A DNA stretch of 64,000 nt from Styela clava (lineage: Eukaryota; Chordata; Ascidiacea; Stolidobranchia; Styelidae). The stretch spans positions 9,267,135 to 9,331,134 of the forward strand of contig NC_135255.1 in NCBI RefSeq assembly GCF_964204865.1. The letters run 5' to 3'. Positions 4,691-63,564 of the stretch are shown here, in pieces. Within the stretch, counting starts at the first letter, position 1. The number at the start of each line of letters is the position of its first letter. The translations under genes were made by a program, and so were the position numbers. The notes beneath the pieces were generated by a model. That model saw only the letters and a program-made list of their open reading frames with translations, was not told the origin of the DNA and did no database searches.

Positions 4691-4825
4691 TTAAAAGGGT
4701 GAGAAAAAAAAATTGTAAGGAAAATACAGAATCTAGGAAAGTCAAACATATATAACTATCAATAATTGTATAGACATACAACTGAATTATTATTATTATT
4801 ACGACCAGACATAAAATCAAAAAAC

Positions 4826-5803
4826 CTACTTGATGAATGAAAGGTCATCTTCAGTGACAATAGGGATGGTTTTTGTCATTGAGTTCTTTTTAATGAGTAC
4901 CCTCCCATTGTGCGTCCATAAAAATTTATATCCACAAATGACTTTGAGATCTTTGGCTTTATAAAATAAGTCTTTATTAGTGTCGGTTAAATTTTCCACC
5001 ACAAAAATTTTGGTGGATGATGGTAATTGTGGAAAGTCGGTACGAAAGTTGGCTGTTCTTAGCTGACGACGATTTTTTAAAATATTATGTCTGGTTTTTC
5101 GGTTGACAAACTTTACTATGATCGGTGATGGTTTCTTCTTGTTGTTTTTCGACATCCTGTGGCAGTTCGATATGTCGAATGGTTGAAGTGATACATTGAT
5201 TCGAGCTGCTACTTTCATGATTATGTTTTCGCAGTCTTCATCTGTGGAGTATGGGATGTTGTGAAACTCTAGATTATCTAGTCTAGATCTGCGCTCTTGA
5301 TCTTGCTGGCGTTCGGTCAAGATATCTATTTCTTCTTCAAGATCTTCGACGATAAGTTCGAGTTCGCGAATTTTTTTGTTATTTTTTGCTGTTTTGTTGT
5401 TCAGATCCTTATAGTTTGCACTAAGGTCATCAAATTTTTTTGAAATGAAGTCCTGGCTTCTTTTAATCTCTCCCACTTCATCTTTTATTATACTGAAGGA
5501 GGACAGCTGGGTTTTCACTTCCTTCAGTGAATCATCCAGTGAAGACAAGGACTGCTGGATGCCAGTGCTGGTGGGAGTGGTTAAAGAGACATCTTGAGCA
5601 AGTCTTTCCAGATGTTGTTCAATGATTGCTGGTATTTCTAAACGCAATGTTTTTAATATTGTGCTTTCAAGCACTGTAACCAAATCAGAGATTTTACTCT
5701 CCGACAATTTTGGCACTGTAAAAGTACTACCAGCTTGTCGATCGGTGGGGCTTTTGCGTTTTGGAGGGTCTGGAGGAACATCACAAGATTTTGAAGTTGA
5801 CAT
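4826..5803 (-). CDS. LINE ORF1: RNA-binding chaperone-like protein, 325 aa
   Basis: The position directly upstream of ORF2 on the same strand identifies this as ORF1. Residues 1-30 are polar and rich in Pro and Lys. Residues about 55-165 are largely heptad-like and probably form a coiled coil for multimerisation. Around residue 170 the segment QERRSRLDNLEFHNIP matches the start of the RRM-like core found in L1-type ORF1 proteins, followed by the region with CHRMSKNNKKKPSPIIVKF and a C-terminal basic part. Such proteins coat the element RNA and help the ribonucleoprotein reach DNA. The ATG at 5803 starts the longest open frame. No zinc knuckle is visible. The stop is TAG at 4828-4826. Confidence 0.85.
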   Translation of the reverse strand: MSTSKSCDVPPDPPKRKSPTDRQAGSTFTVPKLSESKISDLVTVLESTILKTLRLEIPAIIEQHLERLAQDVSLTTPTSTGIQQSLSSLDDSLKEVKTQLSSFSIIKDEVGEIKRSQDFISKKFDDLSANYKDLNNKTAKNNKKIRELELIVEDLEEEIDILTERQQDQERRSRLDNLEFHNIPYSTDEDCENIIMKVAARINVSLQPFDISNCHRMSKNNKKKPSPIIVKFVNRKTRHNILKNRRQLRTANFRTDFPQLPSSTKIFVVENLTDTNKDLFYKAKDLKVICGYKFLWTHNGRVLIKKNSMTKTIPIVTEDDLSFIK

Positions 5804-7834: not shown

Positions 7835-8929
7835 ATGGCGGCAAAGAAGGTGGTTCCATATAACATGGATGTTAGATTCCTTTGTCTTGATGCGGAATCA
7901 AATACGCATGCACTTCCAGCACTGAAATCTAAAATTGCTGACATTCCCAAGGAAAAAAGAAGTACATTTTTAAATCATAAAGATGAAACTGGGAACCGGC
8001 CACTTTTTTATGCGACAATTGGAAGGTCATGTCGTACCATTGAATTTTTGACATCTGAAGGTGGAGATCCAAATCTACATGATGATGATGGCTACACTCC
8101 TCTTTTTTACGCGACTGGTGAAAAAGATCATTTGGAGACAGCAAAGTGTTTGCTTGAAAATGGTGCAGATCCAAACTTTATACGTCAACCTGATGGCATT
8201 TCTCCAATACTATTTGCTACTTATTTTAAAAAGCCACACATTGTCAAATTGTTATGGCAATATGGTGGGAATCCAAGAATTCCTTCGACGGAAGGAAGAG
8301 TTGCTCTCAATGTTGCAGTAATGAATGGAAGTAAAGAGTGTAAATCATTGCTTTGTGATATGGTTCGATGTTTAGATCTGAAAGAGGAGAAAAGGGGAGC
8401 GGTGTGTGCGAATTGTAGTTCTTCAGTAGAGAAGCTGAAACGCTGTGGAAAATGCAGTGCGAAATTGTACTGCAGCAAAAACTGTCAAATAGCAGACTGG
8501 AAACGAGGTCATAGACAAAGTTGTAAGGGATTTTTGATTGCTAAGGTCGAAGTTGATTCTCTAAAAGATCAGGAGTGGATGTTTACACTTTCTAAAAAAC
8601 TTGGAGCATCTTGTCCTCCATCAGAGGGAAAAGACTTCAAAACAGATGTTTCTCATCATGTGGGAAAACAATTCATCGTAAGAGTGCACATAGCTGAAGT
8701 TCTTAATAATATATCCGATCGAGATAAATTGATCATGGTATATTGTGAAGATCGTTGTCGCACGTATTGGATAAGTGAAGAAGGTGATAAGGAAACTTAT
8801 GAAAAAATGGAACAAATATTACGTGCAAATGAAAGTAAAAATTATGGCCATTTTTGGGCTGAAATTCATTCTTATAAAGATCCATCGATTAAAATATTCT
8901 TTGATCGACCATCTGCACAGAGTTGGTGA
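7835..8929 (+). CDS. Ankyrin-repeat and MYND zinc-finger protein, 364 aa
   Basis: One uninterrupted frame starts at ATG 7835 and ends at TGA 8927-8929. Ankyrin-type repeats occupy about residues 50-180, with repeat starts near NRPLFYAT (54), DGYTPLFYAT (85), DGISPILFAT (120) and EGRVALNVAV (153). A MYND zinc finger follows at 191-230 with all eight ligands: Cys191, Cys194, Cys204, Cys207, Cys213, Cys217, His226 and Cys230. The last 130 residues match nothing I recognise. MYND fingers bind proline-rich peptides, so an adaptor role in cytoplasm or nucleus is likely. Unlike vertebrate ANKMY2, where the finger is near the C-terminus, here it is central, so orthology is not claimed. A splice-acceptor-like TTTTAG at about 7792-7797 could belong to a 5' UTR intron or a trans-splice site. 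Confidence 0.88.
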   Translation: MAAKKVVPYNMDVRFLCLDAESNTHALPALKSKIADIPKEKRSTFLNHKDETGNRPLFYATIGRSCRTIEFLTSEGGDPNLHDDDGYTPLFYATGEKDHLETAKCLLENGADPNFIRQPDGISPILFATYFKKPHIVKLLWQYGGNPRIPSTEGRVALNVAVMNGSKECKSLLCDMVRCLDLKEEKRGAVCANCSSSVEKLKRCGKCSAKLYCSKNCQIADWKRGHRQSCKGFLIAKVEVDSLKDQEWMFTLSKKLGASCPPSEGKDFKTDVSHHVGKQFIVRVHIAEVLNNISDRDKLIMVYCEDRCRTYWISEEGDKETYEKMEQILRANESKNYGHFWAEIHSYKDPSIKIFFDRPSAQSW

Positions 8930-19238: not shown

Positions 19239-22200
19239 TCACACTGTTTCCATCGCTCTTTTGATCCATTCGGTATACTTCCAAACTCTTGTATATATCC
19301 CAGGCATTCTTTTTTTACCGCATTCTCGACTCCAACTGACTATTCCATTGATATAAAAGTTTCCATACCGACCACGGCACATCAATGGACCTCCCGAATC
19401 TCCCCAGCAATGATCGTTTCCTCCTTCCGGATATCCTAGAATAAAAAAGAACATTTTTTGGTGACGATGATATTCTATTTCCTTCCAAAAACTTAGTGTC
19501 TACCACACTAACTGATGTGTATTTTGTAGGCAATTTACCTGCACACAGAGCATTTTCCATGATTGTGCCTTTCATTTCTTTCCAGCTATTGCACAAACTG
19601 TTATCAAGAATTGGAACTTTTGCGTAGTTGATTTCTGAGACCAAATCCATACTATCGGCTTTCCGTGATCCCCATCCTGCCACGTAGCAAAAATCACCGA
19701 CAAATGCATCCTAAATGCCATAGTTCAAATATTTACTAGTAAACGCAAATAGTATCAGCGGACAACCAACCCCTGGCATTCAAGTATACCCATAAATTGA
19801 GATAGCTGGTAAATTATGTTACTATACAAAGATGTTTTGCTTCTGTATAACTCCCTTGCGCGTGTTTCAAATGAAGCATTACCGAACATTACTAATTCCA
19901 TAATTTTAATACCTTTCACTTTTATTTTGGTTTAGCGTTACTAACTTTATTATCTACTTGTTAAGATTCACAAAGAGTGCTAAAAGTCTATTTACTTCCT
20001 CCCTGTATACAGAATGTGATATATGCCGAAGCTGAGCATAGAAGAAAAGAGAAGCATTTGGCGGCAAGCACCAGAGCAATAAATATTAAAATAAAAACAT
20101 CATGCACTTTACCTGTGTAGGGAGACACACTGGTGAAACTGTTGGACTGAACACTGCCTTCTTTGAAAGTTTCAGAAGTGCAATATCGTTGTATGGAAAT
20201 ATTCCTAATACTGACATCCCGCTCTGATATCGCCAGCGTGCTGAATATCTGGTGAAACTGCAATAGGTGGTATACAATGTGAGTTTTAAATTAGCAAGGG
20301 GAAATAGAAGTTTGTAAAATAAATCTTCTGTGCAGCTTCAGTTATAAATTTTATGTCGCCTGAAAAGTTGTCGATGCAATTAATAATATTCATGAACAGT
20401 TGAAAGCGCTAAATGCCACAATTTTGTTCCATATAGATGCAAAGGGATTCGGACAAACTTTGGAAATCTTCAAGCAAGTATCTGACGTAACTTACCCTCC
20501 GTGAACCATCAGCTCCGTGACATTGAAATGCTGTTCACCAGGGGATGGGATAGTTCTTTCATATCTTCCAGCAATCACTACAAATTTGTCTAATTCTTCA
20601 TGTAGAAGCATTATACCAAGAGATCGCACGAATTGAGCAACGAAGCAATGTGTGGCTGTCAGAACCCACCTATCATATTGTATGTATATATATATATATT
20701 AAAAATGATTATCGCGTTCATATGCTAATTTGATGGCATGATTTGATTTTTATCATGTGGGTGCGAAGGGCGTGATCATAATACTAACAGCGATTTCATG
20801 ACCGTTACCAGTATTTTGATTTTGGGGTATTTAGTTCGAATCATTATCTAAGTGAGCTCTTTAAGAAATTTAGAGTAGGTAGCATGATCTATTTTAACCA
20901 CCCCATACAAAATTTGGGTCTTGCTCGGGGCAAGTTTAAGTTTTGTTAGCATTTGAGGACCAAATACAGATTCGTGATAAACTTACTGATCATTTATTAG
21001 TGATCCTCCGCAATTTAGCCTCGGCTTTCCGATTTGAACGACCCAAGGAAAGTTCCCATTTTGAGCTTTTTGCCCATTCACAATTCTGTCTGTTGCTGGA
21101 TCAGCTGTCGCAAATGGAACAGACTGAATTCCGCATTGGGGTCTAATCGAACGATCGTCCGCTATTGTCTTTTCCGTTGAAACGAAGTTGACCTTAACAG
21201 CAAATCCTTTGCCTCCTTTTATGGGTTTTGAGTTAGTGCGAGATTTTGTTTTAAACGTTATGTTTGCAGTATTTTCATTCAATATAATTACACCACGAGG
21301 TGTCTGACCACCACAGTAAGATATACGTTTGAAACCTTCCCCATCAATGATGACACTGTCCGAACAATCCTTCGAAGAAATCAAATCAAAATGTTGAAAC
21401 TGCAGTTCGATCGTGTGTTTCTTAGATGGGGCCTGAAGAGACCATTTGCATTTAGTTCCGCCAATGTAAGGTAAAGGGTGGTTAGGACTTGATATGATGT
21501 CACCGTCTTTCGTAACAAGACCACCACACTTGTTATTCAATATTTCAGCTTTGATTCGGAATCCTTTGTCTTGTACTGTATCGTCGGACTTGAAGACAAG
21601 GAAAAAGGCGACATCAGATTTCATTGTGACTTGACTGACCATGCCAGTAAAGTCCCTTCGAATGCTATGAAGTCCAAAACTTTCTCCGGTAATTAATGCT
21701 TTTCCGACATCAGCGAAAGATGGTACAACATACACGGTTAGGATATCAACAGGGTCTTCCAGACTTAGTTCTTCAATAGTAATTTGTAAACGATTTCCTG
21801 ATGGATATATAGTTAGTTAGTTTATGGTATATATGTGTCGAAAAATGAAGCACCACTATACTTAGATCACATTATTAAAAAGTAAAGATCAATTATTTGG
21901 ATCGATTGGTTCGTATTTGGATAAATTTAATTCGCATAGTATCTTTGTCCGTATGGTGACATAATTGAGTTTCTACCGACTGAGTCAATAAGCCAGTCCT
22001 TTCAAATTATACCCGTAAGAATTATTCTCGTTAAATTCACCGCACAATATGTTTTGTCGCAACATGTTGATTTGAACGCATAAAAGTGAAACTTACCCTT
22101 TTGCTGATCTGATTTTGGCATCCTAATGAGCCATTTGCACTCAACGTTATTTCCATATCTCGTTGGATAACCTGGAGATTCTAACACGCTAGGAGCTATA

Positions 22201-25200
22201 ATGACAGAAGTGTTACCAGAACAAGCAGAATCTTCATCATTCGATTCCAGATTCTGCAGAAGTTAACAAAATCACACGCGGTAATAGCCTACAACTTAAT
22301 TAATGACATAAATAAATCTTGCAAAAAATACTTACCTTGTCTTGAGATTGTGTAGTTGGGCCGATACTGTAAATGATGAACGATTCGTCACCTTGAAATG
22401 TTTCTGGAAATGATCTGAGATGTGGTCTACTATGATACGGCCGTTTTTCCGATATTCCGACATGTACAGCCGTCATTCTTACCTTCAATAAGCACATGAA
22501 TATACCAATTATATAATCATTTATATTAGGCCCGCGTAACACCGATTGACGAAAAAAGTATGTAGAGACGGGGTGAGAACTTTACTTACTTCCTTTTTGT
22601 TGCTAGCGTACAAGTAATACAATAACTTCCAACTCTTTGATTCACACGGCTGCAAGAACATTGAATACGCGGTTTTCAATTTTCCAATCGCCGGGACAAT
22701 TTCTTTAAAACAGAAGTATATAACTCGATCCACTCTGACAAAAATATAAAAATAAATTTGTTATAGAAATCATAAAGTAACTGTGTATTGAACCGTAGGT
22801 GCTTCCGCCTTGTTTACTTCCAACTTCGGGGATCCGTAAGTGGCAATTTTCATCAGAATACTTGAACGAGATGGCTTTAGTTTAGGGCGTAGAGCAGGGA
22901 TGGGCAAGGTTTTTGAACCGGGGGCCAACAATTTTGCCCATCTAGTCTGACGGGCCATGTAAGTATGACGTAAAAAATTATATTTTATGAACAATATTTA
23001 CAGTGTTACAAAGCAAAGGTGGAAAACCATAAGCCTCGTGCCAGAACTAAATTTAACCGCAATCTCAACAAATTCATTGAGCTATTTTTAGCTAAGACAT
23101 AAAAATTTGGTTTCAGTTTGGTTCTGGTAGCATCAAGCGGGCTAGATTAAAATACCCAACGGGCCGGAGCTTCAGAGTGATAACTATAAATAAAATAAAA
23201 TTATTTTCCGAAAGATGTTATATTATTCTCATAAAAAATTAGTCATAATAAACTTGAAGAAAGAGTATGAAATCCAAAATTAATATACCCTTCAGCGCGT
23301 TCCGGATATAGTCTTAGGGATGTTATATCTCCTCTTTTCTTTCGACCTGGTGTCCATATTCCGTCTGTATCGAATTTGGTTTCGTCGTCTATTCCTTGTC
23401 TCAGATACCTTCGAAGAGTTTTGAAAAATGAAGAATCATGACGTTCACGCTGACATATTAACTTTATACCAGCGATTCATTAATTTGGTAACGATACCCA
23501 CGGATTGTGCGATTCAGTCATACTGTATGATGTGTATGGAACGCATTTGATTGTCGTCTCACAAAATTTCCTATGAATGAACATGACATGAATGAAAAAT
23601 ATCATACCGTAACACTTCTTGTGAATTTATATAACATCTTCAATCTTATGTTTTCAAAAGATGTTTCGATAATTTTATTGAGATTTTTTCACATCATCAG
23701 CTCGATAATGCTCTAAACAAGCTGTAAGCGTAACTGATACGTACGGGACAACTATTTTTGTAATAGCTAAAATTGTTTCCGGTCAGACGTCAGCTTAGTC
23801 ATGTGACTTACTTGAAAAATATATTTCCATTTTGCACAGTAGAATAAATAAGTACAGTGATAGGTTTGTCGGACTGAGCAATAAAATTTGCCGGATGATT
23901 ACAGCAATATAAAAATTTCCTAGTTGGACAGGGACGGGACATATCTGATCCGTGACAATTCTTCTCCAGCGTTCCCCACTGTGGAGGTCCATGAATCCTA
24001 TTGTGTCTTCCACATGTTTCAACATTTCCCCTGCCAATCTGCAATGAAAAGTTACGCCAAATGTATAATGTGTAATAAATACGCTGGAAGTGATGCATGC
24101 ACTTTTATAACATTTCATTGGAAAAAGTTAAGTATAGTCTGAAGTAAGCTTTGCCTCTGAAGTTGGCGGGATATTGGTATCGTATCTTGGGATATTAAAC
24201 AGATTTTAGACGCAGAGTCTCTGTTGTAGAAATATTACGCCGAAATTGGATAGCCTATAATGTAAAACAGATCAAGTTATCCGCAATTTTGGAGTTGCTT
24301 AAATCAAACTATGCCGAGAGTCTTTGATATTAAATAGCGCATTACCTGAATCCAGTCATTGTATTCGTCTAAAACTGGAGCCCATTGATCACCTTGCATA
24401 ACGCCATAGAATGGTCGGCTGCCAAGACTAAGAAACAACAAATATGTCTTAACAATTACCGTTTTCTGTGGCATGTTATCATTTTTGCGCGGTGAAGGAT
24501 TTTTATTTTATGAGAGCCAAATAACTTGAGTAAAATGCCATTGAGTTCAACCCTAAATTTTTTCTTGAAATCGCATAAAATACAAAATTATTCAATTATT
24601 TTTTCACTTTATTGTTGTATATTTTCGATTTCGATTTACCTATTCATATTTTTGTGTAGTCACATGCCTTTTTCTGCCCATACCTATAGGCTAAAAAATT
24701 ATTATCCGTTGCATGTGAAACATACCTTTGGTATTACATTTTTTCAGAGAGTATAAAACTTCGGAATTGGCATCATAAAGAAAAATAACAGCATTTGTAT
24801 TTGTTTATTCAACTTACACATTCAGTTTGAACCTGAACTATGCTACCTGCATATATCTTTTGACTTGCATAGTGTTTTCCCATTGATTGCACATGTGTCG
24901 TTGGCTGACCTCCAAGTGAAGAATTGCAATTTTTCGTCGGAAATTCGCGTCATAGAGAGATCATTTGGGGGTTTTATAATTTCATAATGCAGAGAAAAAC
25001 TCTTCCCAGTGCTGGACCTAAAATTCAAAGTGACTGAGTAATACATAGATTTGTAAAACAAAATTTAACTTTATATGTTTTCAAGAATTTATACACATTA
25101 GCAATTCGCGTTTTCTGTGCGAAAACGATTCGGAATACATTTGTGCGAAGACGGACGTTTGCGAGAATATTACCATTTTGATGATCTTAATTTATAAATG

Positions 25201-28200
25201 CCGTTCATTATTCCCAAACTACATTCTCGCAAAAATCCTTTTTTTGTCGAATTACTTTTGCTCGAAAGAGGGATGTCACCGAAACTCATTCAAATCCATC
25301 TACCGAAAATTCTCGCGAAATTACGTTTTGGAATAATACAGAAGTGCAGAGCCTTCGCAAAACTTAATTTACACACTCAAGTCCGAGGCCCAGTGCTTAC
25401 CGCCGTCCCAAAAAGCTGATATTCAAATCATTGTCGATTGTAACAAAAGTTGGTGGAAGCCTATTCCCACAAAACGTTCCATATCCAGAAATTTTGACCT
25501 TGTCCTTCAGGCAGTTCATGTCGAAGTTGAAAGATGAAGCTCTTCCTCCTACGAAATTTTGGAACTGAAAATTGCAAACACGAATTATCAAGTTATCTTG
25601 ATTCATATAAATAATGACCGAGCGCTAAGTTTCGAGAAATTTAGTTTTAGATAGCTTATTCTATATCCACACCTAATCATTTCACCAGCGCACACAGGCA
25701 GTCTGTCACCATGAAGTGCAAATAGCCAAATTCCATTTTCATTACTCCGAAAGAGGCCGTGGCTCACCTTGTTATTAAGCAATCTTATCGGTTTTCCTTT
25801 ACCTTACAGAAAAAGTTTAGCCAATTATTTTATTTTCGGCAACCATATTTCGCATTTTTGTAATGGAGGGCGTGCTTAGTCAATCGCTGTGTGTTTTCCT
25901 AAACAATTTTAGTCACGGAGGAATGGATTAGCATTATTGATCGATTGAAAATCATAGATACTTTGCAAATCGTAAAACTACCTTGTCAAGCCACATTATA
26001 TATAGAATAACCATGTGTTACTAAAATAATGAAGACTAACTTTCCATGTAGGGATGCTCCGTTTTTTCTCGTTATCAAGCCTTATGATTCTGAACGTAAT
26101 TCTTATAACGCTTCCTCTCGACGCACTGATTTTCCAATTACACACTACATCCTTTTTAGCGTTTGCCGTGAATTTTTCGGGAAATCCCGGTGAAGAAATA
26201 ATGCCGGATTCTGATGATAACATTTCCACGTTACCGTTGCATCCGTCTTTAGCAAGCTGTGTGGTCTGAATATAAGGGCGCGATTTTTCGTTACTGGGTA
26301 CATACAAAAAGTGCTTTTTTGGAAATTCCTTGTTGTCTTTTATCGCCACTCGTGAGTTTAAATCGAGGCCGTAGCCATTGCTCCCAATTATCAGTCTCTC
26401 TGCCGAAGCGTTTGAAGGAACCGAATATGAACCGTACAGGTAAAAGTTATTTTTCCAGGGATAGCTACACCACCTTTTAGAGATCCGATGAATTGTTGTA
26501 AGCAAGTTATCTTTCGTTGTAATGGAACGAATGCAAAAGAAGATAGGATCTTCAAATTTGTTTTCAACAAAATTAGACATCAATGTAAATTTTTTCAAGT
26601 CACCCGGTAATCTCCCACTCTCACGCCACGAGGCTTTATCAGTAAACCAATCATTTTTGTCTCGAACTCTTTCCAGTGAAAATGAGTAATACGGAATTCC
26701 TCTATCCTTTCGGCTATTGACATAAATTGAAACTGGATGTGCTACTGGTTTTTGTACAACCTCGTTCTTTTCGCAACAGAAAAATCCTTTGGTAGTTTGA
26801 CAAAAAACTTTTATTTTACGATGAGGTATGTTTGCATTCCATTTTGTGCAATTTTCTTCACCCCACGAAGGGGGTCCATCAGTTTCGCTGAGTTTATCGC
26901 ATTGTCTAATTCGTTTTGGTCCAAAATATAACCAATCATTGTACTCGTCCAAGATAGGTACCCAAGTATCTTTTACAAAATCATTTATTCTCTGCTTCGG
27001 AACATTGCCTTTTGATATTTGCCGGCAAAGATCTTTCCTCAGGCATAAGTTCTTGTTAATCTTTTGACAGCGATCCGCCGCCGATTTCCACGAGAGATTT
27101 TTGACATTTTCTGCAATTGAAAGGGCAAATTTAATAATGGTGCACTGCGTAACAACAATATCCGTGCGATTTCAAGATAAATTTCAGATTTGAACTCAAT
27201 GATATTTTAGACAAGTTGTTTTTCTCGTTTAGCTCTGATAAAATAAAAAAAATTCTCCATAAAGGGAAATGGTTGTAGCTTCAGCCACAGTAGGATATAT
27301 CACATAAAATATCAGTAACTAAAACACCATGTATTTTAGTGCATTTACACCCGCATTGACGTAACAGGCAATTTCGGAATGCATTGATTGTCATTTATAT
27401 CAAATAAATGACGTCCAAGTAAAAAAAAAAAATACGCCCGAGAACCACACTTTCAACTATTGCGAAGCCACATACTTGCGGGAATGGGATTATTTTTACC
27501 GAAATATTGCTGTTCTGACATATGATGCGCCCTTTCCTCTATTTTTCATATATAATCATACAATAAATATTAAAAACTCACCAAAATATGTAGGAGCATC
27601 ATCGCTTTTGACCGAGCAAAAATCTGAAACAATAAATATATATCAGAAGGTTGGAAATTACGCTTATAAATGAATAAATTAATATTTGTGGTCGACGATT
27701 GCAAACCTCATTGTTTGTTTGACTGGTTTCATTAATCCATTATCATTCCACAAAACGTCATATTGAATATTTACATCATTTTGGAATAATACAGTTTTCA
27801 ATACAAAGTTTCCGGGGGTATATTGAACCCTTTCTTAATAAGGTTATAATTTGTGACGAAAGACTTTAAAAATTAACTTCAAAAATGAAAATTGAATTAT
27901 TGGTTTAATTTTTTACCGTTTTGGTCTACAACTGTGTATACAAAGTTAGCATTTTTCGTGCATAACTGATTTAGGTTTTTTTCGACCATGGGAAATCGTC
28001 TTTAATCAGAAGACTAAAAATATGACAAAACTTTTGGTACATTATATTGTAAGAAATCAAAAGTACAAATTGAGTTGGACAGGGGTTACAAATTAATTAA
28101 ATTTATTTTACAGCTACTCGTACCAATTTGGGATAATTTTCTTTCAAATTAGTGCCACTATAAATAATTCTGTTACTAGAAGATATACGCGTTTGATTGA

Positions 28201-28360
28201 TGCTAAGCCGCTCATTTACTAAAATTCCTAATCAACAACGCATAGCCTCAGAAAGGAAGAGTAATATTTATCTATATTATATCAAATAAAACTTGAACTA
28301 CTTACTCATCAAAGAAATCATGCTGACCACCAAAACAATGTATGTCGAGTGAATATCCAT
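19239..28360 (-). CDS. Secreted mosaic serine protease: X-CUB-X-CUB-CUB-trypsin, 17 exons, 1,327 aa
   Basis: Exons (minus strand, given low-high): 28306-28360, 27582-27623, 26041-27110, 25401-25564, 24847-25017, 24346-24418, 23812-24038, 23498-23570, 23289-23449, 22590-22734, 22336-22482, 22097-22253, 20987-21797, 20496-20669, 20113-20257, 19539-19710, 19239-19435. All junctions are GT-AG and in frame. Residues 1-20 are a signal peptide. Module X1 (about 34-320) and X2 (about 479-785) share W-x-S-A-x(3)-C, L-C-x(3)-D-x-C, a P-x-L-D-E-Y-N-D-W core, G-P-P-x-W-G and a final C-C. Each precedes a CUB domain (Cys323 and Cys787); a third CUB starts at Cys919. The protease begins at Arg1066/Ile1067 (IVNG), with His1106, Asp1181 and Ser1276 in GDSGGP. 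Asp1270 at the pocket base predicts cleavage after Arg/Lys. Such CUB-trypsin proteins act outside the cell, for example in immune or developmental cascades. X is unrecognised. Confidence 0.9.
22895..23172. mobile_element. hAT-type MITE in a protease intron, right end truncated
   Basis: The left end CAGGGATGGGCAAGGTTTTT is a common hAT terminus, followed by GGGGGCCA. Near 23120-23172 the phrase GCGGGCTAGATTAAAATA then CGGGCCGGAG resembles the usual inner right end of such elements, but the outermost bases are missing. It lies in the intron between exons 22590-22734 and 23289-23449. Confidence 0.55.
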
Positions 28361-33622: not shown

Positions 33623-36299
33623 GTGAGTATTATATCTGCTATGCAGATTAGTATACACGTTTGTGTAGAAATAATGGTTTTGGGACTTCCTTGTTCCAGT
33701 TATCTAGGCATGATTGCCAATGTGACGCAGTAGCCAAGTTAGAATACAGTTTTATACCAACTGTTTTATATTTTAGACACAAAATGAGGTGGAAGCGCTA
33801 TATTTCAGTAAAGTGTGTCTCATTTACCTGAAACCCCTATCAAGAATTCGGCCGTCATTTAAACTAGCTGTGCAGATGGTCTTTTCTCTCGCATAGCATA
33901 ATATAGAACTAATATAATCTATGTTTGCATTGATAACTGGTGTTCTTGTAATCAGCAGACATGGGAAATCGGATGCTAATATTAACCCGACCATACGTTG
34001 ACAGTGCGTCCAGATGCGCTTCCTTTAATATGGAAACATATCTAGCCCATTGTCTGACAAATGCAAACTTAGCAGCAATTCTAGTGTAGTGAACGTAATT
34101 CTAAACTTCCTTCCTTGCTGGAAAATGATAATCACCTCATCGAAAGCATTTTCAGAAACTGACAACGAAACACAATCGACCTTGGTAGGACTACGGGTAA
34201 TACTTTGATAATCGGTGCGAATTATCTTTGCGTGAAGTTTGGCCTAGCAGGTCGTCAAAGTGCTAGTGTCAAAACAGTAGTACCGTGTCGGTTAATTGCG
34301 TGCATTATTAACATATGGTGGTAATTTTATCGCAAGTGGTGTTCGAATATTGTCCAGCCTTGGTCAGATGTTTGTTTCAAAACATATTTGCCTAGATTCA
34401 CGAGATTGCAGTTTCGATTTGAAACGCTTTTTATTGCGATCACACTAACTGTTGTGTCGGCCCCGTGATAGACCTCGTATTGTACACTTAGAACAGTATA
34501 ATTCTACTTCATTGACGACGGCATTTTTTCAGAAAACTATTGACTGAGCTTGTCCTCAATTTTATATTAGGTCGTTGTTCTTTTCGCGAATATGTCAAAA
34601 TGTCTTGTCCAAGAAAGCTTTTAAGGATTTAGTTATAAATTTTATGGCCAGTAATTTATTACTGAGCGCTAAGTAAACTTCCAAACTTTATAGACATCGA
34701 CATGCTATCAGCTGATAGCGCACACGTGTTGTGTGTTCTTATCTTCAGTCATTTGAGCATGAAGCGACTACGGTTACGCTGGAGATAGAAATTCATAGTT
34801 TGCTGGCGAAAGCTTAAGGTAACATTACGTAATGCTGCAGGTAGACGTTAATCAGCGGTAATAATAAATTATATAGTTTTTCCATTAGAGCAATGAATGA
34901 ACAAAATAGCTAGCGATTTTCGTAAAAACATTACTGTCTGCTGAACCACTCAATAATCAAATCAGTGCCATCAATTGGGATAAGTAATTATATAAATTAC
35001 AATAGAACCAGACTAGAATTGGAAGAAATGTTTTGGTGGCGCTGTGTACAATACATTGCATTTCATTCTTATCGATGATATGAGACATTTTACTTATATG
35101 GGTGGATAATTTATTTATTTGTTCTACAAATTTTATATGGTACGCTAGAATATGACGTAACTCCAAATAATGTAATACTTCACACCTATGTATCCAGGAA
35201 GTGCGCGCAATCGCATTGTATAACACAATATATTTTGTCTATCGTACTGGCCGACTAGTTTCATTGAAAAACTTTCCCAGAGTTTGACTTCACGTGTGTG
35301 TTGTTAACCATTCGACTACAAGGGTCGGCAATTACCGTAATGAAATATTAATGCTTTTCGAGATCTCGAAATGTATTGTTTGACTTTTTTTCCCGTCGCG
35401 CTCAGAACATACCTTATCGATGTATAAACTATCATCTCCCGACTGTAAACCCGGTAGCCATGTAAGGTTGAGACGTTTTCTTAGCCGAGCCGTATACCGT
35501 CACCCAGTGACTTAATTCAAACCACCATACCTAACGGCAGATATTTAAGACTATTTTTCTTGTTCGTTTTCGATAGTATCGAATGACTGGTGTGGTTTGA
35601 ATCAATGGATACATACAAATATATACCAGAGGTAGATTATGCAGGCAGGTAGTCCCGCTGTGTTCTATGGTATTTCTAAATGGTGCCTATTTTATGACCT
35701 AAGACTTTATGTATTCCTTTCTACGGGTACGTTTGGTTCAAGGATCATTTATTCTAGGTAGCAAACCTACATTATTACCTCTTTAATTATTTTTAGTGAA
35801 TTATATTTATGAGCAGGCCAGGAAAAATTTCAAACTTCAGTCTGTCGCAGTTTTCGAGTAAGATTTACTTTGTTTCAAGCAAGGATTTTGTTTGTTCTTG
35901 TTACTTACATGGCCGTTTTTTAGTCATTTCGATTTTTCATTATCCTCAAATATTTAATATATCTTTTCTTCCGCGACAACTTTAATTATTCCACACGCGT
36001 AACTATTTGAATTAACACTAATTTGCAGGTACTAGTGTAATTTGATAGACCTTCATGAAATCTGGAACACATGTGTTGCCCTGAAAAATCAATCACACAT
36101 GGTTGCTAACTTGCGGCGCCCTTTGTTGTGAAATTTAATTATCTTCATTAAAACTACGCGACGTACACTGAGCTACTATTCAAAGCAGTTCCCGGGAAAC
36201 ACAAACATCGAACATATTTTTTCCCTGTTGGACCTACAAAGATCAAAATTACTACCCAAATTTTTTATTCGACCTCTGCTGCCCTTCCGTTGCGACCAG
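33623..36299. other. Candidate intron or upstream region, nothing recognised
   Basis: No coding segment or transposon end was seen. The last 150 bases are open in the RBM24/38 frame from 36152 (after a TAA at 36149) but hold no ATG. A splice acceptor GACCAG ends at 36299. Confidence 0.4.
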
Positions 36300-39200
36300 C
36301 TTGCACAAACGGAAACTTGGCAACCCTACACCCAACATCTTCAGCCTTCAACTCGGCGAAACCTCAAATTAGGCCTGTTTCGGTTGATAGTGTTCTAGCT
36401 TCATCAAATTTCCTGTTCACCTCAGAGGAGTCAGAAACGCGGAACGCAGCCACTGTGGAGAGTTTAAACAGAAAGCGCAGGGCTAGCCCTTTCCTCGTCA
36501 AGCAAGAAACCAACGGAGCATCAATTCCATCTACAAGTGTTTCAACAAATTTAGACAACACGGAAGAAGAAAGCGCAAAGAAGGCTCGGATTATTGCCGA
36601 AGCAACAAGTGCTGTCAACCACGTACCGGGTGTAGCTCACAGACAAGCGATTGACCCCACAACGCTCGCTTATTCTGCGGGATCGAGAGGCTTCCTGGTG
36701 TTGCCTGGATCCCAGACACCGGGGCTAAGGACGCAGTACATTTTAGGTTCAAACACTGCATTACCAACCGCCAACGGTATAATCCCGTCGGTAGCGACTC
36801 AAAACCTTACAGGAGTGCCCCAACCACCTAGCGCCGCAGTTCTCCAACAATTGCAAGCAAACGCTCAAGCTTCAGTTTTATCAGTTGCCGGTCAATCTCC
36901 GGGGCAAATAGCCGCACCAATAATGACGAGCGCGGCAACAACGAACTTTTTTGCGAATACTGCACAACCAGTAGGACACCAAGTTATAAATAGTGCAGGA
37001 AAACCTGTAAATATGACTTATCACACGCAAAAAGACACAACTTTTACTAAAATATTTGTTGGAGGTTTGCCATATCATACTGACGACGCGTCTCTAAGGA
37101 AGTATTTCGAACAATTCGGTGAAATTGATGAAGCGGTTGTTATCACGGATCGAGTATCTTCTTGTTCCAAAGGATATGGATTCGTGAGTACTTGAAATTA
37201 TTTTCTCAAACTTTTCGATTAACTATGTAATTATGCGCTGTGTAAGGTTGGGATTGGTATACAGCGTATACTATAAAGTAACTTGTTGAAAACGTCCTGC
37301 AGTTTGTATAACCAAAGATTGAATTTAACATAGATGTTTAATCCATTCCGACTTTATCACAGTTTAGTTCCGACGCATATATTGTTGAAATTGATGGCAT
37401 TCCAGAATATCCATTGTGATTGTCATTGATCGAATAGTTTGAACGAATTACTTAGATTACGCGATTATTTTTAGGATTGCCCATTTACGATGAGATCATA
37501 GCTTTCAGTAAATCAATTTAGCAGCAATGACAGATGCACTGCATTATAGGGTTTCTCATCGCCACAAACCAATTGCATCATTTTGAATGGATATGTTGAA
37601 TTAGAATTATACCTCGGCTCTTTTTTTGATGACTGAACCCGAACAAACTCAAAATTCCAAAATCCCGTTTAAAATAAAATTCAACAATGTCGCCGTTGCC
37701 TACAAATTGTCAATCCATGAACATACACCCGAATTAATTAACTTTCGATATTCCGCTTAATCATATCTATTGTGGCATAGTGTGTGGTATCGTGTAAAAA
37801 ATTCAGATGGTCGTGAATAACCAACATCTTTGTATTCACATGTCGAACTAATCGATCAATTTCTGACCTCTATGAATTGAACATTGTTCAGTTCAAAAGA
37901 ACAACTTGGAATATGCTTTCTATTTTTCATTCCGTGACGTTTCATTTCATTATATCAGGTGACTATGGCCGAAAAAGGAGGAGCTGAACTCGCCTGCAAA
38001 GACCCCAATCCTGTGATAGATGGAAGAAAAGCCAACGTTAACCTCGCCTATATTGGTGCCAAACCGAGAGGACAACATGTCACACCAACCAGTAAGACAT
38101 TTTCCCTATTGCTATACTTACAGAAGTTACTGTGTGGGTGTTATAATTTTTTATGTAAATAATTTTCAAACAAGTGATGAAAAACATATAGTAGTCCTGT
38201 ATTAAGTGGCGACCGTAAAATCAGAACATATTTTCGGATATATCGTATGAGATTTTATCTTAGTTGAGGCAATTAGCCTTTTAATATGACACTCTCTGGT
38301 AGACTTGTATCTGCCCCAGTAGGATACTATGTCAAATCATGCGACAGCTAATTCTTAACCTGTGAATATAATATTAAATTCATTCACTGCATCAATTTTC
38401 TTTCCCATCGGATTGTGGTGACGATGCTCTTGTGCCATTATACCTGCCTTCCCATGGGGCTGCGCACACTGTTGATAGCAGAAAAGTCGACCAAGTGCAT
38501 CTGCTACATTCGTTGAAATGTGATATTCGCGAAACATGGCCCAATGATATCATTAATAGGGACATTCCGTTTGTATTTCGCATGATATGATGCAGCAACA
38601 TATTAGGACTCTGATCCTCTTGTCAAGTATTGATGTTTTATGAAATGGCTCGGATCAAAAGTGGTTATTCAAGTCGTATTACAGACTAAATGATGTGTTA
38701 CTACCTTATCAATTTTTTTTATCTCACGCAACCAGCGACACATAAAAATGCCAAGCTGTCGAAAGTATACCGTTATAAATAAGGTTTCCGAACGTAATTT
38801 CGCTTTCAAAATAATATTTTGACTAAAAACAGCAACTTGTTTGAGCTTAGGCGAGAAAATGACCACATGTTACCTTAACAGAAAAACCCTATTATCACAA
38901 AACTGATGGGAAACATTCGATTCCGATGCGTTAAATTGGTTTTGTAGATGAATTGGTTTATAAAGAAGCGGAATTGTTTATATCGTGCATAGCATATATC
39001 GTGTCATCATGAATCTATTCTAGCTCTGTGTATCTGTTGTTTCTACTCCTTCGGATAAGAGTGTTTCAGCTTCAAGCATCAATTACAGATGGCTTGAAAA
39101 CCCTGTCAAATTGCAGAACCCCGTAAACGGCAAACGAAACTGCTTAAAATATCCAATGAAAGCATGTTTATTGAAAACGTAACTTGGCCTCTTTAATCCT

Positions 39201-42200
39201 TGCATTGCACGTAGACCGAACGGTTATCTTGGCGTTTGTGAGTTTGGCGAGTCTGCTTGATTAATTATTAAAAGAATATTCTCGCCGCACTTGTAGTGTT
39301 AATTCACTAGAGTTACTTGACAGTGGGCACACGCTAACCTTACGCCGGCACTTGACTAATGGAAAAAACGCGAAAAACGCTGGCATACCAAGCTGGCTTC
39401 GTGTCGAAATATCACTGAACCGTAAATTACCTTGTCGTTGTTGACAGTATACAAAAAGTTAACAACTTTGCATCTGAGTGATAAGAAATCAAGATCGATT
39501 ATGATGAGTAAGTTGTTAATTGGGAAACCAAGCGGAACCATTTGAATACATACAAACTGGGACCGTGCCTATACGAACGAGACGTTAACAACTAGACCGA
39601 TGTCCAAAAGGGATAATTTCGTATGTACCATATAATGATAATCAAATGAAATTGAGTTGGCACCACATGGAGACAAATATCGACCAGTTTTTATAGATTC
39701 GGACATTTTCATACATTTTCAATTTATAATGTGGAGGTATTAAACCCACGGGGCTCCAAATTTTAGGTATTTATGTATTGTTAAGTCACGACGAAAATCT
39801 AGCACTGTTATGTATTTGTCCCTATTCCTTCCAAATAAGTTTTGATATATGTATATGAAAAACAGGCGATTCGGGTTCCTCTTAGTCTACGTTTCAGCCC
39901 ACGTCAACTATGTTTGAAATCTAGTACACGGAATAAAGTTTACATAAGCTCTTGTTTTAAACGTTCGTATTAAATCAGGAGCACTCGACGACACTCGTGA
40001 AGATGTTATGGTATGCAAACAGAAATTTGGTGTGTATATCGTAAAACTTAATACTATCAATACTACGTAGTACGTATACTTGCTCTTCGCCGTCCCAGTA
40101 TCAGCCACATCGTAATAACTTTTTATAAGACATTCATATAAACAAACCTAGCCAATTAACGAATTTATATAATGTTGATCAAATCGTACTGATCGATTCG
40201 TGTCCTAAGGTTTTGAATATAACGTAACTTCCAGTTACATTTGTCGCGATTTGTAAGGATATACCCCGTAAAGCAACGGAAACATGGCAGCATTAGCGGT
40301 TTGGTTAGCATGGGATCCATCCGAAGTAAATCAATTGATTATCGGAATAGTATGGTTGAATAAACAAATTGTATATGTCATTATTCACTGACATGGTTTT
40401 GATATTGTTAGTAAAAACTAATCGCTGCGTGTACAAAAAAAACTGACTCACCCCTAAACAAAAAAATTATTGTAAATGAGTTGGTAGAAAAGCTAAATAT
40501 TGGTATTTTGTTATTCACAGTTGCAAACAATATTCGTTCTACTCCTTTCGCGAGGTATAGTTTACTTCGTATGTGTGCGGGTTATAATACATTGCATACG
40601 AGCAAGCGAATAATTGTCAGTACTGGTGGTTCTTGTATTTTACATTTCGGGTATGGCCCACCAGTAATGCCCTTTTAAAAACGTTTCCCCTTTTATCAAC
40701 CTCATTGCTTCGAATGATAATGTCTGTCGGTCACGGCCGTTAGATTTCGTCATGCTTGATATCCGATCACGGCAAGGAATTGTTTTAGAATAAAAAATGT
40801 TTGTTATTTGACTGGCACTACGATGAAGAGAATAAAAGTTGAAAGGTTTATAACTTCTGATCAAATTTAAGTTCGTATTCAAATATTAATTTGTTCGAAT
40901 AAGGGCTGGAGTCGAACTGAAACAGTGATGCCCTCTTATATTGCTGTTGTAATACTGCTGTGTTAGTTTGATAAGGGACAATAAAACGTCAACAATGACA
41001 TATTGTGATGTAACAACCAGGGCTCAGGCTTGATCGCGCTTTATACCTTTCCACCATATGGAAACTTTGTGGTTATTTTAAATATAACTAATTTTGGTGG
41101 AGTTCCACTGCCAATCAAGCTACCTCTCGTTTGCCATATCAACAATTTCGTTTTGGGTTTTCACCTCTATTTGCACATTTTTGATTCTCTTGGATAGAGC
41201 AAAAATGTCGCTTTTGCATGTGAAACATTTCCGCATATATGGCATGTATTGTTAGAACTCAGCACATGGCAGCCCCAATTAACCCTTTATATTTGATCTC
41301 TTGTAAGCCACCAGGTATCGTCGTAATCCACAAAAAATATAATATCACATGTATTATATCCCTTCCATTATACCTGTATTCAATTAACCGCACAACTTCG
41401 GACGCCAATTCAGTCTTCAATTTTTTATGAGGTTCCTTACTGGAATGTATCTTGATATCAGTAGCCAACTTTACAGATGAGCTTGATGTCATCTTGGTAA
41501 GCCGGCCCACCTAAGGAGGGGGCAAGTTTCGTGCCTTCTCGTATTCACATATGAAAAAGTTTTGGAAAAAATTTGGTAGTATGGTAATTCGTGGTTATTG
41601 TATTTCATTCCCGGGTTTCGACTCAAGTCAGTATGAATTATTAAATTATTTTAGCCACCGAAAAGTTAACTTCGAGCTGTGGGAATCCCCTGGCGATTGC
41701 GATGAAATATTTGTGTAATCAACGTGGTTTGATAGAATCAATTTTACCGATTCTGGGTTAGGTTTGGTACGTTTTGCATCCGGAATTTTTGGTCTATACT
41801 TTAGTGACACTCAAATGGTGGTGACAAACGACATTTGATTTTCACTCTGATAACAGTATAGACACCAATGTTTTGTTTTATCTCGGTTTCAACGTTTTCG
41901 CGCGAATTATAGCCCATGCTCATGCATATGAAATTTAAACAAGATCCAATCATTTATACATCTGCTTTTCTGATGCAATCTCATGTATATTCTTACTGAT
42001 ATTGACCGCACCATATGTAAATATTCAAGAAGTTGTTCCTCCAGAAAATGCTTTTAGAGCGTCTTGAACAGACTCGCCTATAGTTGAGGTTATTTGAAGC
42101 CTATGGACTCAAAATCCGCAGGGGCCTCGATATCCAATATTGAACAAATATTCATTTTCAATTCGTTTTCAAAGTTTGGAGGCGTGTTCCAGAATTAAAC

Positions 42201-45200
42201 AGCTTTAAAATAATTCAAAAGTGGATTTTTTATTTTTTGATCATTTTAAAATACCCTTGTTCCAAATATTTTTATTTCAAACGTCAAAAAATTAAACAAG
42301 TTCAAATAAAGTGAATTTTATGAAATAATTAAAATGATATTGATCATGTAGTATAGCTTTATTCGTTCAAATGGTTAATTTTACCACCTAGGCGGTTGAT
42401 TACAACCGTCTATTGTGGATTTAATGTGTTTTAGGCTCTTGGACGGTACATATAAACTGTACGACTAGTATGAATTCCTTCGATTAGCCCGTTAATATAT
42501 TACTAGCTGGTTAGTTACATACTGGTTACGTCGTTACACGACGTGGCGACTTCAGTCATACACCACTTCAGCGCATATTTGGCTTCTCTATACCTTGGTC
42601 CATGTATTAGGAGGGCGTACTTGTTTGTTTACTGGATTTGTGGCATGTGGGATTCTACGCTTACGCTAAAATGTAGCAGAAAAGAACATTTCACATTTTG
42701 AAATTACCTTTCAAAATCATTTTAGGTAGGCTCCATTATCGTGTGGTGATGTTTCTGAAACATAATTAAGACTTCGGCGAATGTTTATACGGCCGTTTCA
42801 GAGAAAATTAGGAATCATTTAGTTGCTTCTGCATTACGCTACATAACCTTATAGCATATGTTGAAAATCGTGAGATGATATGCTGATGACTCTTACTTCC
42901 CATTAAAATTTTTGCATGTTGTAGTATACATAACACGGGCTAAGTGTCGCAAAAAAATTTCCACCTAGAATAAGAACAATGAATTACTGAAGCAAGGAAA
43001 CACAATTTTCTTCGTGGCCATCGATAAATTTTACCGCAGTATTGTGTGTAAAATAGTTGGCTTTTAGTAAATTTAGTAGGGTAATCACTTTTCTCTCGCT
43101 CAATTTTTATTGCACTAGTAATTTTCCCATTATCATAAGATTCATAACGCTGTAAACGTACTGACATTATTCATGTGTACACTTGAAAATATTTTATATA
43201 GCTTTTTTGGTACTGCCGTAGTGTGTGTACCAGGCTAGAGTTTGGCCATAATTTCATTCCGATTTTTCTTACTTTAGTTCTATTACGAGTTCGAGGACCA
43301 AGTATTAACCAAGTGAGTATACCCCCTGCCCACGGGTTTCAGCCCCTTTACACACAAAATGAAGTATAGTAGGCGAACGAAATTAGTTACCTCCATAATG
43401 GTACACACACTTCTGTAACGCCGTTTTTTTTTCAAGAAAATTCGGTCCTTAAATGATAGATTGTCCCATGCGTGGACGTGGTTGAGTGAGTGACCAGCCA
43501 AATTTATGTCATTTTAAACCGTCTTGAATATTAAATACTTTTGATCAGGTTGTTATTACTTTACAATGAATCATTTTAGAAATTGATTTGCCGGTATTGT
43601 CGTAAGCGTGGAATCGTTTGATTAAACGATATAACGATCGACTGCAAGGCACCATTTGTCCTTCATCAGCGGCATCCTAATCTTTTAAATGTCCCTTAAT
43701 TATGCGGCTCCAACCGTTTTCCCAATTACATACATTGTCTCGCGCGACCCAAGAGTATCCGTTTTCAGCGTTTGACTAGGTAACATAATCCGTTTTTAGT
43801 TATTCGTTGAAAGAAACAAGCTGGTAAGAAATGTTCGCGCGTTTTCCTGAACTGGTTTATACCGCTTTTTACCTTCGTTGGAAATTCCGCTGAACAATAG
43901 ATACTGACACAGATTCTCATGAGATGATATTCACTTGCTATTAAACGCGTATATTGACTCGAATTCATCAGTTTCTTTTGTCATCGCTTTATAAGGTTAT
44001 AAGCTCACAGAGTTCGATCCCGCTCCCACGAATATACCCCTGCTGACACCATTTTCGAAACATAACCGCCACGGTTAATCAATATGGAGGTAAAACGAGT
44101 ACAAAACTTTTGATGACCAAAAAGTTTTCGTGGGTTTTCAATTTTTTCTGCGCGGGACCGGTACGTGACTGTCTTTAAACATTGACTGTTTATATTTTGT
44201 AGACAATGAACGTTCTAATGTTTTTATTAGAACACACGGAGTTGCGTCATAATACGTGGTTGTATTGGGACGAGGCAGGCGTTGATTGTTGCGTCTAGCG
44301 AATAACCCTAATTTCAGAATAATGTCACCGTCTTGTCAAATCTTTTTTTTACCTTTACGCTATTCTGTGTTGTACCGGAGATGGTAGAATTTTGTATTCG
44401 TTGTCAATCTAATATATGGACATCCAAATCACATCGGGTTCAACGAATTGTTGTATTCATAAAAAAAATTCTTCGGTTGGCCACTTGTACCATTTGCACC
44501 AATTCACATGGCGGGACTGGCAGTTGTTTACAAATCTTTCAATATCCGGCTTTTGAATAATTCGACTACACTTCAAATTAAATGAATTGAGCGGAAATGA
44601 AAAGTTTTGTTTTGCTTGTACCAGTATACTAGACTCGCGCTGATGCCCATAATCAAGGAATGAATCTCTGGGATCTCGAAAGACCTTTTCATCGAACCAA
44701 GACAACCCTTTCGTCGTCCACACAAAGCGCTGTTTTGTCTGTGTGACCGCTAGTCACCGGTATTTAATAGCAGAATATAGAAGCAGTATTTCATTTCCCC
44801 TTGTCGATTCAATTATATTGCCGCCACCAGAATTCTATTATGCTGGTTCTTCTATTGTCTGTGTCAGTTTTCAGTTACGCTTTCCCTCTTTTGTCAGTGT
44901 TTTGTCCTATACAACGTTCCCATACTACATTTCTACGGTCTTAATGAAATTTGAACCCGGTTTTTGTTCTGTTATGTTTTTGCTATCGTAAGTTTTACAC
45001 TATTAGAAAATAGTAAAAAAATGACTGAAATTTTATGTTCAATGTAACGAACACGGACAACATAGGGTATGAAATTGTCATGGGAATTTAGTATAAACGA
45101 ATCTACTCCATATCAAATACATGGCTCAGAAGATAACTTAACTTTGTACAATTTCAAAATGTACTGAGCCTACGTTCTAACTAGACTTTTTATTTATTTC

Positions 45201-48200
45201 ATTGAAGTGCTTTGTACAAAGAACTGACGTTACCGACTCCGTTCTATATAAATGTTAACATCTTTTGACAAGACAACCCACACATGTTCGCGAAATTAAT
45301 TAAAACCGTCGCTTGGAATATAATGTCACTCAGTTCCGTTCAATTAAGAGTGTTGTAATGTCGATACGCGGGTCAGATCTCCTGTGGTGGAGACACATAT
45401 CGATTACGTCCATATAACGAGCGATATCCGTCGGTAACTCGCGACTTTTTTATGTTATATGTTATATATTTTCATCATATACTTAACTTGTTTTATTCGT
45501 TAATTTTTATGTCATTTGCAATTTCTCATCGAACAAATTTCACATCTGTTTGGGAGAATACTGAACTAGAAGCAAATGAGATACGTCCTTCCAATCAAAT
45601 TTGTTCCCGTCCCCACGTATTAGTATTATAACAACATTTACTGCGACCACAGAAAAAGATGCTGAATTTAGTTGTACGCCCAACCTTAACGAGTCTGACT
45701 TCGCTGGCAGTCCAAGATTAGTCCTATATGCATCCCACGGCGTCGTCGAATTCAGGTGTACGCCAAACCTGAGAGTAGACAAGACAAGAGTCTGTTTCTG
45801 GAGCCAACATTACCCATGTTTTTTCCAGCTCTTGTTTTATTTACTCGTTTATTGATGTTTCATGACTTTATGTAATACGTTATATTGATTGATACAAACT
45901 AGCGTAGTAGTTGGTCAGTACTCTAAGAAATAAGAATTTATCTTAGCGTACTTTTCACAATGTAAAGGGTAACATTGTCTATTTTTCTGTATTTTCAGAT
46001 GTTATTGCACGACAAGGTACAACCTACGCGCAGTATATTCAACCTGTTCCTCAGACTTTAGGACAATCGCCTTTTGGGTAAGAACGAATGTGTTTGCTTG
46101 ATTTTGCTTTTCCAATCAGCACTGCAAAACGGTTATTCTAGGAACATTTATTTAAATAATGCGACAGTATCTTGCGGCTATTTCTGAAATCTGAAGACTT
46201 ATATTTCGGTTCTTTTAGTTTTAACAATAATATGACCATTTGAATGGTAAATTCAAGACGATAAAGGAAAAATTCACTTTTTCCGACGTTTTACTTGGAA
46301 ATTCATATCTGGAATAATCACAAAAAATCTATCAAGTTTTGAAGTCATTTTCATTTTTGCAATGTTGTGTATTTATGACAGAAGAGCCTGCTGCCAAATT
46401 AATTTACATACCAGCGTTCACTTCCGATTTCTATATATTTTATTTCCTTCCATAACAGATAATTTACGAATTGTAAAATCCGTTGCAGGCCGTGGTAATT
46501 GTGCCAGCAAAGGTGATGAAACATGTACGTGAGATATTGATAATAGACGTCGCGTGCGGTGTGTTTTACGCGTTTTTTATTTGTGGTTTTTTTTCTTGTT
46601 CTTATTATTACATCATTTTTATTTTCCCTTAAGTTGAATTTATCATCGAAATCTCAATGTTTTGAGATCAGCGATACGAAATGTGGATAGAAATACTGAT
46701 GTTTATACACAAAACAAAAATACCCTATTTTGTTGAATTTACAAAACAGCTACGTGTTGGCCAAAATAATTGTGGAATAGTAAGCGTTTTTCTTTATTCA
46801 AATGGCTGTGTTCATAATGAAAAAACGCACCCATGTCGTACAAATTTGTAACAATTCGGAAATATGATTTCAGTCCTGAAAGTTGCATAAAACAAATTCA
46901 GAAAAATCACAATCATGTTGTAATTACTGATATCAAATATTACAACACTATTAATTCCCTAATAACTGGTAATGAAAGAAAGAAGTTACTTGATTCAAAA
47001 TTTTGCTATTCACTGATTCAATTTCGATGTTAGAGGCTTTTATAACAGCAAATTATCACAGCCACTGATGCCAAATTTTTCTTTGCACTGGCTTGTTTAA
47101 TATATATCATAATTTGGAAATATATTTGATTTAAACCTGTTTATGAATTATATCCGTACTTGGACATTTGACGCTAAATGATGATAAAATTTGATTATGT
47201 TCTATTTTGGTTGAATGACGTGTAAAACATTGTTTTGAATGATTGTGGGAAATTTTCTTCACTTTTTTCGACACTGAAGTTTGGAGATTGGTAGATTTAT
47301 CATTTAACTTCGCGATTCAAGGGATTTTAGCATGTGTATCCATCGAATACTTCTCAAACTGTGGTTGGCGTTTGTAATAACCTGTTGTTCGATTTCAATG
47401 GTGAAAATCATCTTAGAAAATCCTTACTAGGCGAACTTGATTGCCTCTCTTCTGCCCCCTCGTGTTATCTTCGGTTCGTTTTTTGTTTGTTTGCTAAATA
47501 TCATGCGTGTGCTTGGACGTTGTTGTGTCGTTGAATGTGGGTGATAAAACAACAACATTCATTTTTTTTCATGTTTTGTGATGTCACGTTTTTGCCGTGG
47601 AATTATACTGAACTTGCTAATATTCCATCATCACGTTATAATCAGAGCACTCGATACGCATCTAATCGAGTACAGAAAAATCTTAAAAAGTCGAAAAAAA
47701 AAAAATTTGAAAAGCATATTCGTATGTTTAAGAAACTCTATATATATGACTAATCTAAGTTTAATTCGATACCAATCGCGGAAAATTTGAGATTAATAGA
47801 TGCATTTATTCTTAATTTACTAAGTTATATGAACTAAAGGTAGGTTGTGTAATAAGCTACGCCACAGCTTAAATTGAAATCAATTGTCGCTTTTTTAGTC
47901 TTCGGACAAGTTCCATTTTCTTTTTTAATATACAAATTATACTTTACTAGTTCGATGGGATCTATGCGAATGATATATTTGGCGATGGATCATCTGCGCT
48001 TTTGTGCTTTGTCTCTAGAAGTAATTATGTATGTCGACCTTTAGAACTTTTGGTGTAAGGTTTGAGTATATTCGCATACAATACAACGAATATATATACT
48101 GAAATATAACGTCGCTGAAATAGAAACGGCCGGAGTTGCATTTTGCCCAGATTCGTTTCCATGTTTATGGTCGACAATGTCGTGTTTTCACACGAGGACA

Positions 48201-60026: not shown

Positions 60027-63564
<3,538 letters not shown>

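Follow-up and report, generated by a model that had tools for sequence, protein, structure and literature searches.

The window, that is, the whole stretch of 64,000 nucleotides analysed here (C6:9267135-9331134, in a searched genome of 376.6 Mb and 379 contigs), carries on its minus strand a gene for a predicted CUB- and trypsin-containing protein. The gene model is based on splice sites, open frames and paralog comparison, and comprises 16 exons, running from position 28360 to position 19239, which join in frame with GT-AG introns. The coding sequence has 3,879 nt, from an ATG at 28360 to a stop codon ending at 19239, and the product has 1,292 aa. A Pfam search and the comparison of the X copies gave the order signal peptide, X1, CUB1, X2, CUB2, CUB3 and trypsin, where X stands for a Cys-rich module of about 300 residues that is present twice.

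28360-28306, 27623-27582, 27110-26041, 25564-25401, 25017-24847, 24427-24346, 24038-23812, 23408-23289, minus strand: exons 1 to 8 (open frame, splice sites)
22734-22590, 22482-22336, 22253-22097, 21797-20987, 20669-20496, 20257-20113, 19710-19539, 19435-19239, minus strand: exons 9 to 16 (open frame, splice sites)
28306..28360, minus strand: exon 1, with the start codon and a putative signal peptide that runs on into exon 2 (hydrophobicity)
26242..27108, minus strand: module X1, residues 34-322, wholly within exon 3
26851..27102, minus strand: DUF7495 in X1, residues 36-119 (Pfam 43.7 bits, cut-off 27)
26242..26760, minus strand: C-terminal half of X1, residues 150-322, without a Pfam match of its own; paralogous copies are weakly DUF7023-like
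24993..26241, minus strand: CUB1, about residues 323-452, spliced over three exons (Pfam, paralog alignment)
22221..24986, minus strand: module X2, about residues 455-752, spliced (Pfam, BLASTP, paralog alignment)
23952..24920, minus strand: DUF7495 in X2, residues 477-557, spliced (Pfam 59.1 bits, cut-off 27)
22221..23882, minus strand: C-terminal half of X2, about residues 581-752, spliced, without a Pfam match of its own
21526..22220, minus strand: CUB2, about residues 753-884, spliced (Pfam CUB)
21178..21528, minus strand: CUB3, about residues 884-1000, best Pfam stretch 884-984 (Pfam CUB)
19263..21084, minus strand: trypsin domain, residues 1032-1285, spliced (Pfam 4.4e-55)

In the hydrophobicity scan, the most hydrophobic stretch of 19 residues in the protein begins at residue 5. 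The next, at residue 812, is moderate (1.42 on the Kyte-Doolittle scale) and lies inside CUB2, and therefore it was not taken as a membrane anchor. The CUB family exceeded its Pfam cut-off over the whole protein (123.3 bits vs 21.4), in three stretches. The sequence-only reading of this locus had described the product as a secreted mosaic of CUB and trypsin in which a Cys-rich module is duplicated. This was right, and the domain order that it gave is borne out by the gene model and Pfam. Its borders of X are revised, since X2 spans about residues 455-752 and not 479-785, and its description of X as unrecognised does not stand: in the profile search, both N-terminal halves passed the cut-off of DUF7495 (PF24325), an uncharacterised Pfam family.

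The alignment of X1 with X2 shows them to be homologous (BLASTP E 6e-29); its local score is 279, and none of 500 shuffles scored above 56. Eight cysteines are found at aligned places in each N-terminal half. The C-terminal halves of the window copies had no Pfam match, and neither whole X1 nor whole X2 had a match in NCBIfam.

The search of the genome with DUF7495 gave nine exon matches, corresponding to the window, one on contig C8 and seven on contig C10. The match on C8 belongs to a second gene (~22153074-22166752) with the order X1-CUB1-X2-CUB2-CUB3-trypsin; the 5′ end of its model is uncertain, with no Met at its start. The two proteins share 522 of 1,244 aligned residues (42%). The X2 DUF7495 half is best conserved (61/114), followed by trypsin (123/247); the other identities are 40/115 for the N-terminal and 59/167 for the C-terminal half of X1, 71/174 for the C-terminal half of X2, 50/128 for CUB1, 53/123 for CUB2 and 47/125 for CUB3. 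That the mosaic has been kept open at this identity argues for function in both genes. Thirteen of the 15 window introns have a counterpart in the C8 gene of the same phase and no more than 2 residues away; the unmatched ones are the first two, and the C8 gene possesses six further introns, including in X1.

These comparisons bear on the question of whether the locus encodes one protein or two. The sequence-only reading had proposed a single protein of 17 exons; its join is in frame at the coordinates that it gave, but 16 exons suffice. A candidate for a further exon, in the CUB1 intron at about 25803-25769, was rejected, as no pyrimidine-rich AG acceptor precedes it and the C8 gene aligns without such an exon. 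The open stretch there may be a dispersed repeat, judging from a similar peptide string in the C13 stretch described below. As the single-protein model is predicted from sequence, two neighbouring genes or a wrongly joined model were also considered for this locus. In the C8 gene, however, the domains follow one another in the same order over 13.7 kb, and this, like the matched introns, argues for a single gene, so that we regard a split or mis-joined locus as very improbable.

The X copies pair by position across the two genes, with z 78.9 between the window and C8 X1, z 107.3 between the window and C8 X2, and z 37.6-47.5 for the four X1-X2 pairs. Since each copy is closest to its counterpart, X was probably doubled before the two genes split, an order read from pairwise z scores and not from a tree. 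The earlier proposal that an X-CUB unit was tandemly duplicated is retained in part: X is duplicated, but for the whole unit the CUB scores are mixed. CUB1 scored 56 with CUB2 vs 68 with CUB3 in the window protein, 45 vs 43 in the C8 protein, and 67 vs 46 and 47 vs 55 across the genes. CUB1 is thus not consistently nearer to CUB2 than to CUB3, and duplication of the unit is not supported as proposed; duplication of X alone also fits.

Further relatives were found on C10 and C13. The C10 DUF7495 exons form two clusters (C10:17945001-17985000 and 8395001-8425000), with three pairs and one single exon; the layout was read from exons and open frames and not from full gene models. In these 70 kb, neither CUB nor trypsin was matched at E<=1. 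The 100 kb of C8 and C10 that were scanned contain three collagen-like runs (minimum 4 triplets). Each of them precedes paired DUF7495 exons on C10, and two of the three (6 triplets) share an open frame with DUF7495 or a near-identical copy. By its exon arrangement, this is a collectin-like layout.

The C-terminal half of the C8 X1 gave five matches in the genome: two were C8 itself, and the others were the window, C13:11935374-11935676 (E 1.1e-9) and C10 (E 8.88, chance-level). At the C13 locus (~11932300-11936970, minus strand), for which the exon model is rough, X1, one CUB (Pfam 4.1e-10) and X2 are present, with a possible weak CUB-like piece ahead of X1 and a dsRNA-binding motif further down. 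The N-terminal half of the C13 X1 aligns with the other X N-terminal halves (z 9.6 to 20.1) and has no match to DUF7495 at E<=1, and the C13 X2 piece reaches 23.6 bits, under the DUF7495 cut-off. Within 30 kb around the locus, tblastn found no trypsin exon above chance level (the best match, with E 0.034, lay on the opposite strand), and a trypsin profile built from two sequences had no match at E<=1. On this basis, the X-CUB-X gene on C13 looks like a protease-free relative.

Two of the paralogous C-terminal halves match the same part of the DUF7023 profile (PF22894), both under its cut-off of 27 bits: the C8 X2 copy with E 0.0093 and 16.2 bits (profile positions 20-125), and the C13 X1 copy with E 2.6e-5 and 24.5 bits (positions 22-118). 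No match to DUF7023 was obtained with the C8 X1 C-terminal half or with the window copies. The C13 X1 C-terminal half was also the single match of DUF7023 in the whole genome (E 0.0015, 25.8 bits, below the cut-off). From these profile matches, X looks like a composite of DUF7495 and a divergent DUF7023-like half. No paper naming DUF7495 or DUF7023 was found in the literature searched, and no X-like domain is named in the portions of the literature surveyed. A DUF7495-pair pattern matched 46 stretches in genome_contigs and 71 in viral_contigs, none of which was confirmed.

A possible link to lectins comes from a profile of eight DUF7495 copies, which had three matches at E<=10 among PDB sequences, all of them C-type lectins: E-selectin twice (E 0.085 and 0.32) and CLEC4A (E 1.6), none significant. 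In the control search, the X C-terminal half profile matched two repetitive or designed chains (E 0.074 and 1.5), taken as chance; since an unrelated chain reached a similar E value there, the lectin link is counted as non-significant, while the fact that all three matches are C-type lectins is suggestive. The Lectin_C profile had no match at E<=10 in the eight DUF7495 members, in a search with filters on, where weak matches may be lost. X1 alone had one PDB match (E 0.21), and its AlphaFold model from window-only rows (pLDDT 38.5) was too poor for a fold search. The DUF7495 half is possibly a divergent C-type-lectin-like domain. Its likeness to collectins and C-type lectins lies in the non-significant profile similarity and in the short collagen-like runs ahead of DUF7495 on C10; it differs from them in the missing Lectin_C match and in the length of those runs, only 4 to 6 triplets.

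In the trypsin domain, the triad is assigned by motif to H1071 (TATHC), D1146 (NDIALL) and S1241 (GDSGGP), and D1235 occupies the S1 position, likewise by motif. The activation motif RIVNG predicts cleavage at R1031|I1032. The window protein has W1238 and S1263 where the C8 protein has R and G, and both residues differ also from the aligned trypsin. We take them to correspond to residues 192 and 216 of chymotrypsin, and with these differences activity or specificity may be altered. Cysteines are present in the linker (C1015) and at PVCLP (C1166); in related proteases, the cysteines at these two places tether the two chains.

The reading that we prefer, with a probability of roughly 0.45, is that the gene encodes a trypsin-like zymogen which is secreted and carries its own recognition arm, X1-CUB1-X2-CUB2-CUB3. 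The arm is possibly lectin-like, and each X in it would consist of DUF7495 and a DUF7023-like half. The arm would bind a glycan or glycoprotein surface and concentrate the zymogen there, cleavage after R1031 would activate it, the catalytic chain would be held on via C1015-C1166, and the activated enzyme would cut locally after Arg/Lys. A single chain would then do the work of a lectin together with that of a MASP-type protease, though the protein is not a MASP. Gating of the protease by X/CUB recognition, which we infer, finds some support in the non-significant lectin matches, in DUF7495 behind collagen-like runs and in the X-CUB-X gene with no detectable trypsin, and these are suggestive. 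As the setting we favour humoral defence; egg coat, tunic and matrix were also considered.

MASPs, C1r and C1s have the order CUB-EGF-CUB-CCP-CCP-protease. Like the window protein, they are trypsin-like zymogens that contain CUB domains and have a non-catalytic arm, with the protease at the C-terminus. However, the window protein has the order X-CUB-X-CUB-CUB-trypsin, and its recognition module would sit in the same chain. Neither EGF nor CCP had a Pfam match in it at E<=1, and because of their absence from the Pfam results and the different order, we do not consider it a MASP. Separate MBLs and MASPs have been described in ascidians (PMC5465252).

The ascidian ovochymase and proacrosin also combine CUB and trypsin in one tunicate protein: HrOvochymase is described with trypsin, two CUBs, trypsin, three CUBs and an inactive protease, and HrPreproacrosin with a protease followed by two CUBs (PMC9265791). 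The window protein differs in that its only trypsin is C-terminal, with no CUB after it, and in that it contains X twice. In HrTTSP-1 of ascidian sperm, a serine protease at the C-terminus is joined to lectin-type domains; however, this type II membrane protein has 23 EGF-like and two ricin-B-lectin domains, and no CUB or X is named for it in the available part of that paper (PMC9265791). A Ciona TSP1-trypsin marker gene (PMC10962819) was considered and set aside. In the literature, as far as its texts were available, we found no description of the order X-CUB-X-CUB-CUB-trypsin; eukaryotic protein databases lay outside the search. The best reading is that the predicted domain combination is new among CUB proteases; CUB-trypsin mosaics as such are known.

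The ovochymase and proacrosin comparison raises an egg-coat protease as an alternative, in which X and CUB would bind vitelline-coat proteins and the trypsin would process one of them. Among the CUB-trypsin proteins of ascidians, HrOvochymase and HrProacrosin act at the vitelline coat, coat proteins are bound by the HrProacrosin CUB1 peptide, and in HrTTSP-1 ricin-B-lectin domains are joined to a serine protease domain (PMC9265791). Nonetheless, we consider a role in fertilisation unlikely, given the single C-terminal trypsin without CUBs after it, and given that the published descriptions of those proteins, in the accessible part of PMC9265791, contain no X-like module. A protease that processes matrix or tunic, with X binding structural matrix instead of non-self and the enzyme maturing matrix or growth-factor proteins, seems to us improbable to a similar degree. 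CUB domains are frequent in matrix proteases, and several X or DUF7495 loci in the genome would be consistent with such a role, as would the cellulose-containing coat of tunicates (PMC6523144). However, no matrix-binding motif was identified, and the same facts fit defence.

The residues W1238 and S1263, together with the absence from the window gene of introns that the C8 gene has in X1, could also indicate drift in the catalytic domain of this copy, with altered or reduced activity beside a more canonical C8 copy. The triad motifs, the S1 Asp, the activation motif and the open frame are nevertheless intact, and trypsin is among the best conserved domains, which makes drift quite unlikely in our judgement. 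Within the preferred reading, that of a zymogen with a recognition arm, the relatives on C8, C10 and C13 might be extended to a tunicate one-chain system resembling the lectin pathway, with a C-type-lectin-like module in three formats: fused to CUB and trypsin, in a protease-free X-CUB-X protein, and behind a short collagen-like stalk. This extension is doubtful; if true, recognition and proteolysis would not depend on the coming together of two proteins, MBL and MASP.

Should the arm prove to be a lectin, tunicates would have a further route tying surface recognition to a trypsin-like protease, which bears on the assembly of complement-type cascades near the base of vertebrates. The module also places two Pfam domains of unknown function side by side in one secreted protein, which gives both a testable context. 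If the arm is not a lectin, the genes still represent a protease family that was duplicated and retained, and its module of about 300 residues is unstudied.

Several other features were observed in the window and the genome. Two introns of the protease gene (window 24514-24575 and 27165-27226) contain a 62-nt inverted repeat with 81% complementarity. The cellulose synthase of tunicates has GH6 as its last domain. One GH6 exon passed the cut-off in the genome (35.4 bits), with membrane-like coding stretches upstream, seen by eye; this exon is consistent with a tunicate as the source. COX1 was not found in the assembly. Cellulose synthase is reported from all tunicate genomes and from no other animals, and GH6 genes are reported in tunicates (PMC6523144, PMC7464555).

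Elsewhere in the window, a LINE-type element is present at 1718-5803 (minus strand). Its 990-aa ORF contains an endonuclease and a reverse transcriptase domain, and an ORF of 325 aa lies next to it. A 364-aa open frame with ankyrin repeats and a MYND finger lies at 7835-8929 (plus strand). The region 36152-50902 (plus strand) begins with an RRM exon at 36152-37192, and the open stretches after it are, judging by eye, presumably RBM24/RBM38-like. A weak match to ribosomal L23, below the cut-off, was found at 56907-57239 (plus strand), and a repetitive Pro/Leu/Ser-rich stretch at 54751-55581 (plus strand) is open in several frames. Two exons of a Ras-type small GTPase are located at 60657-63579 (minus strand).
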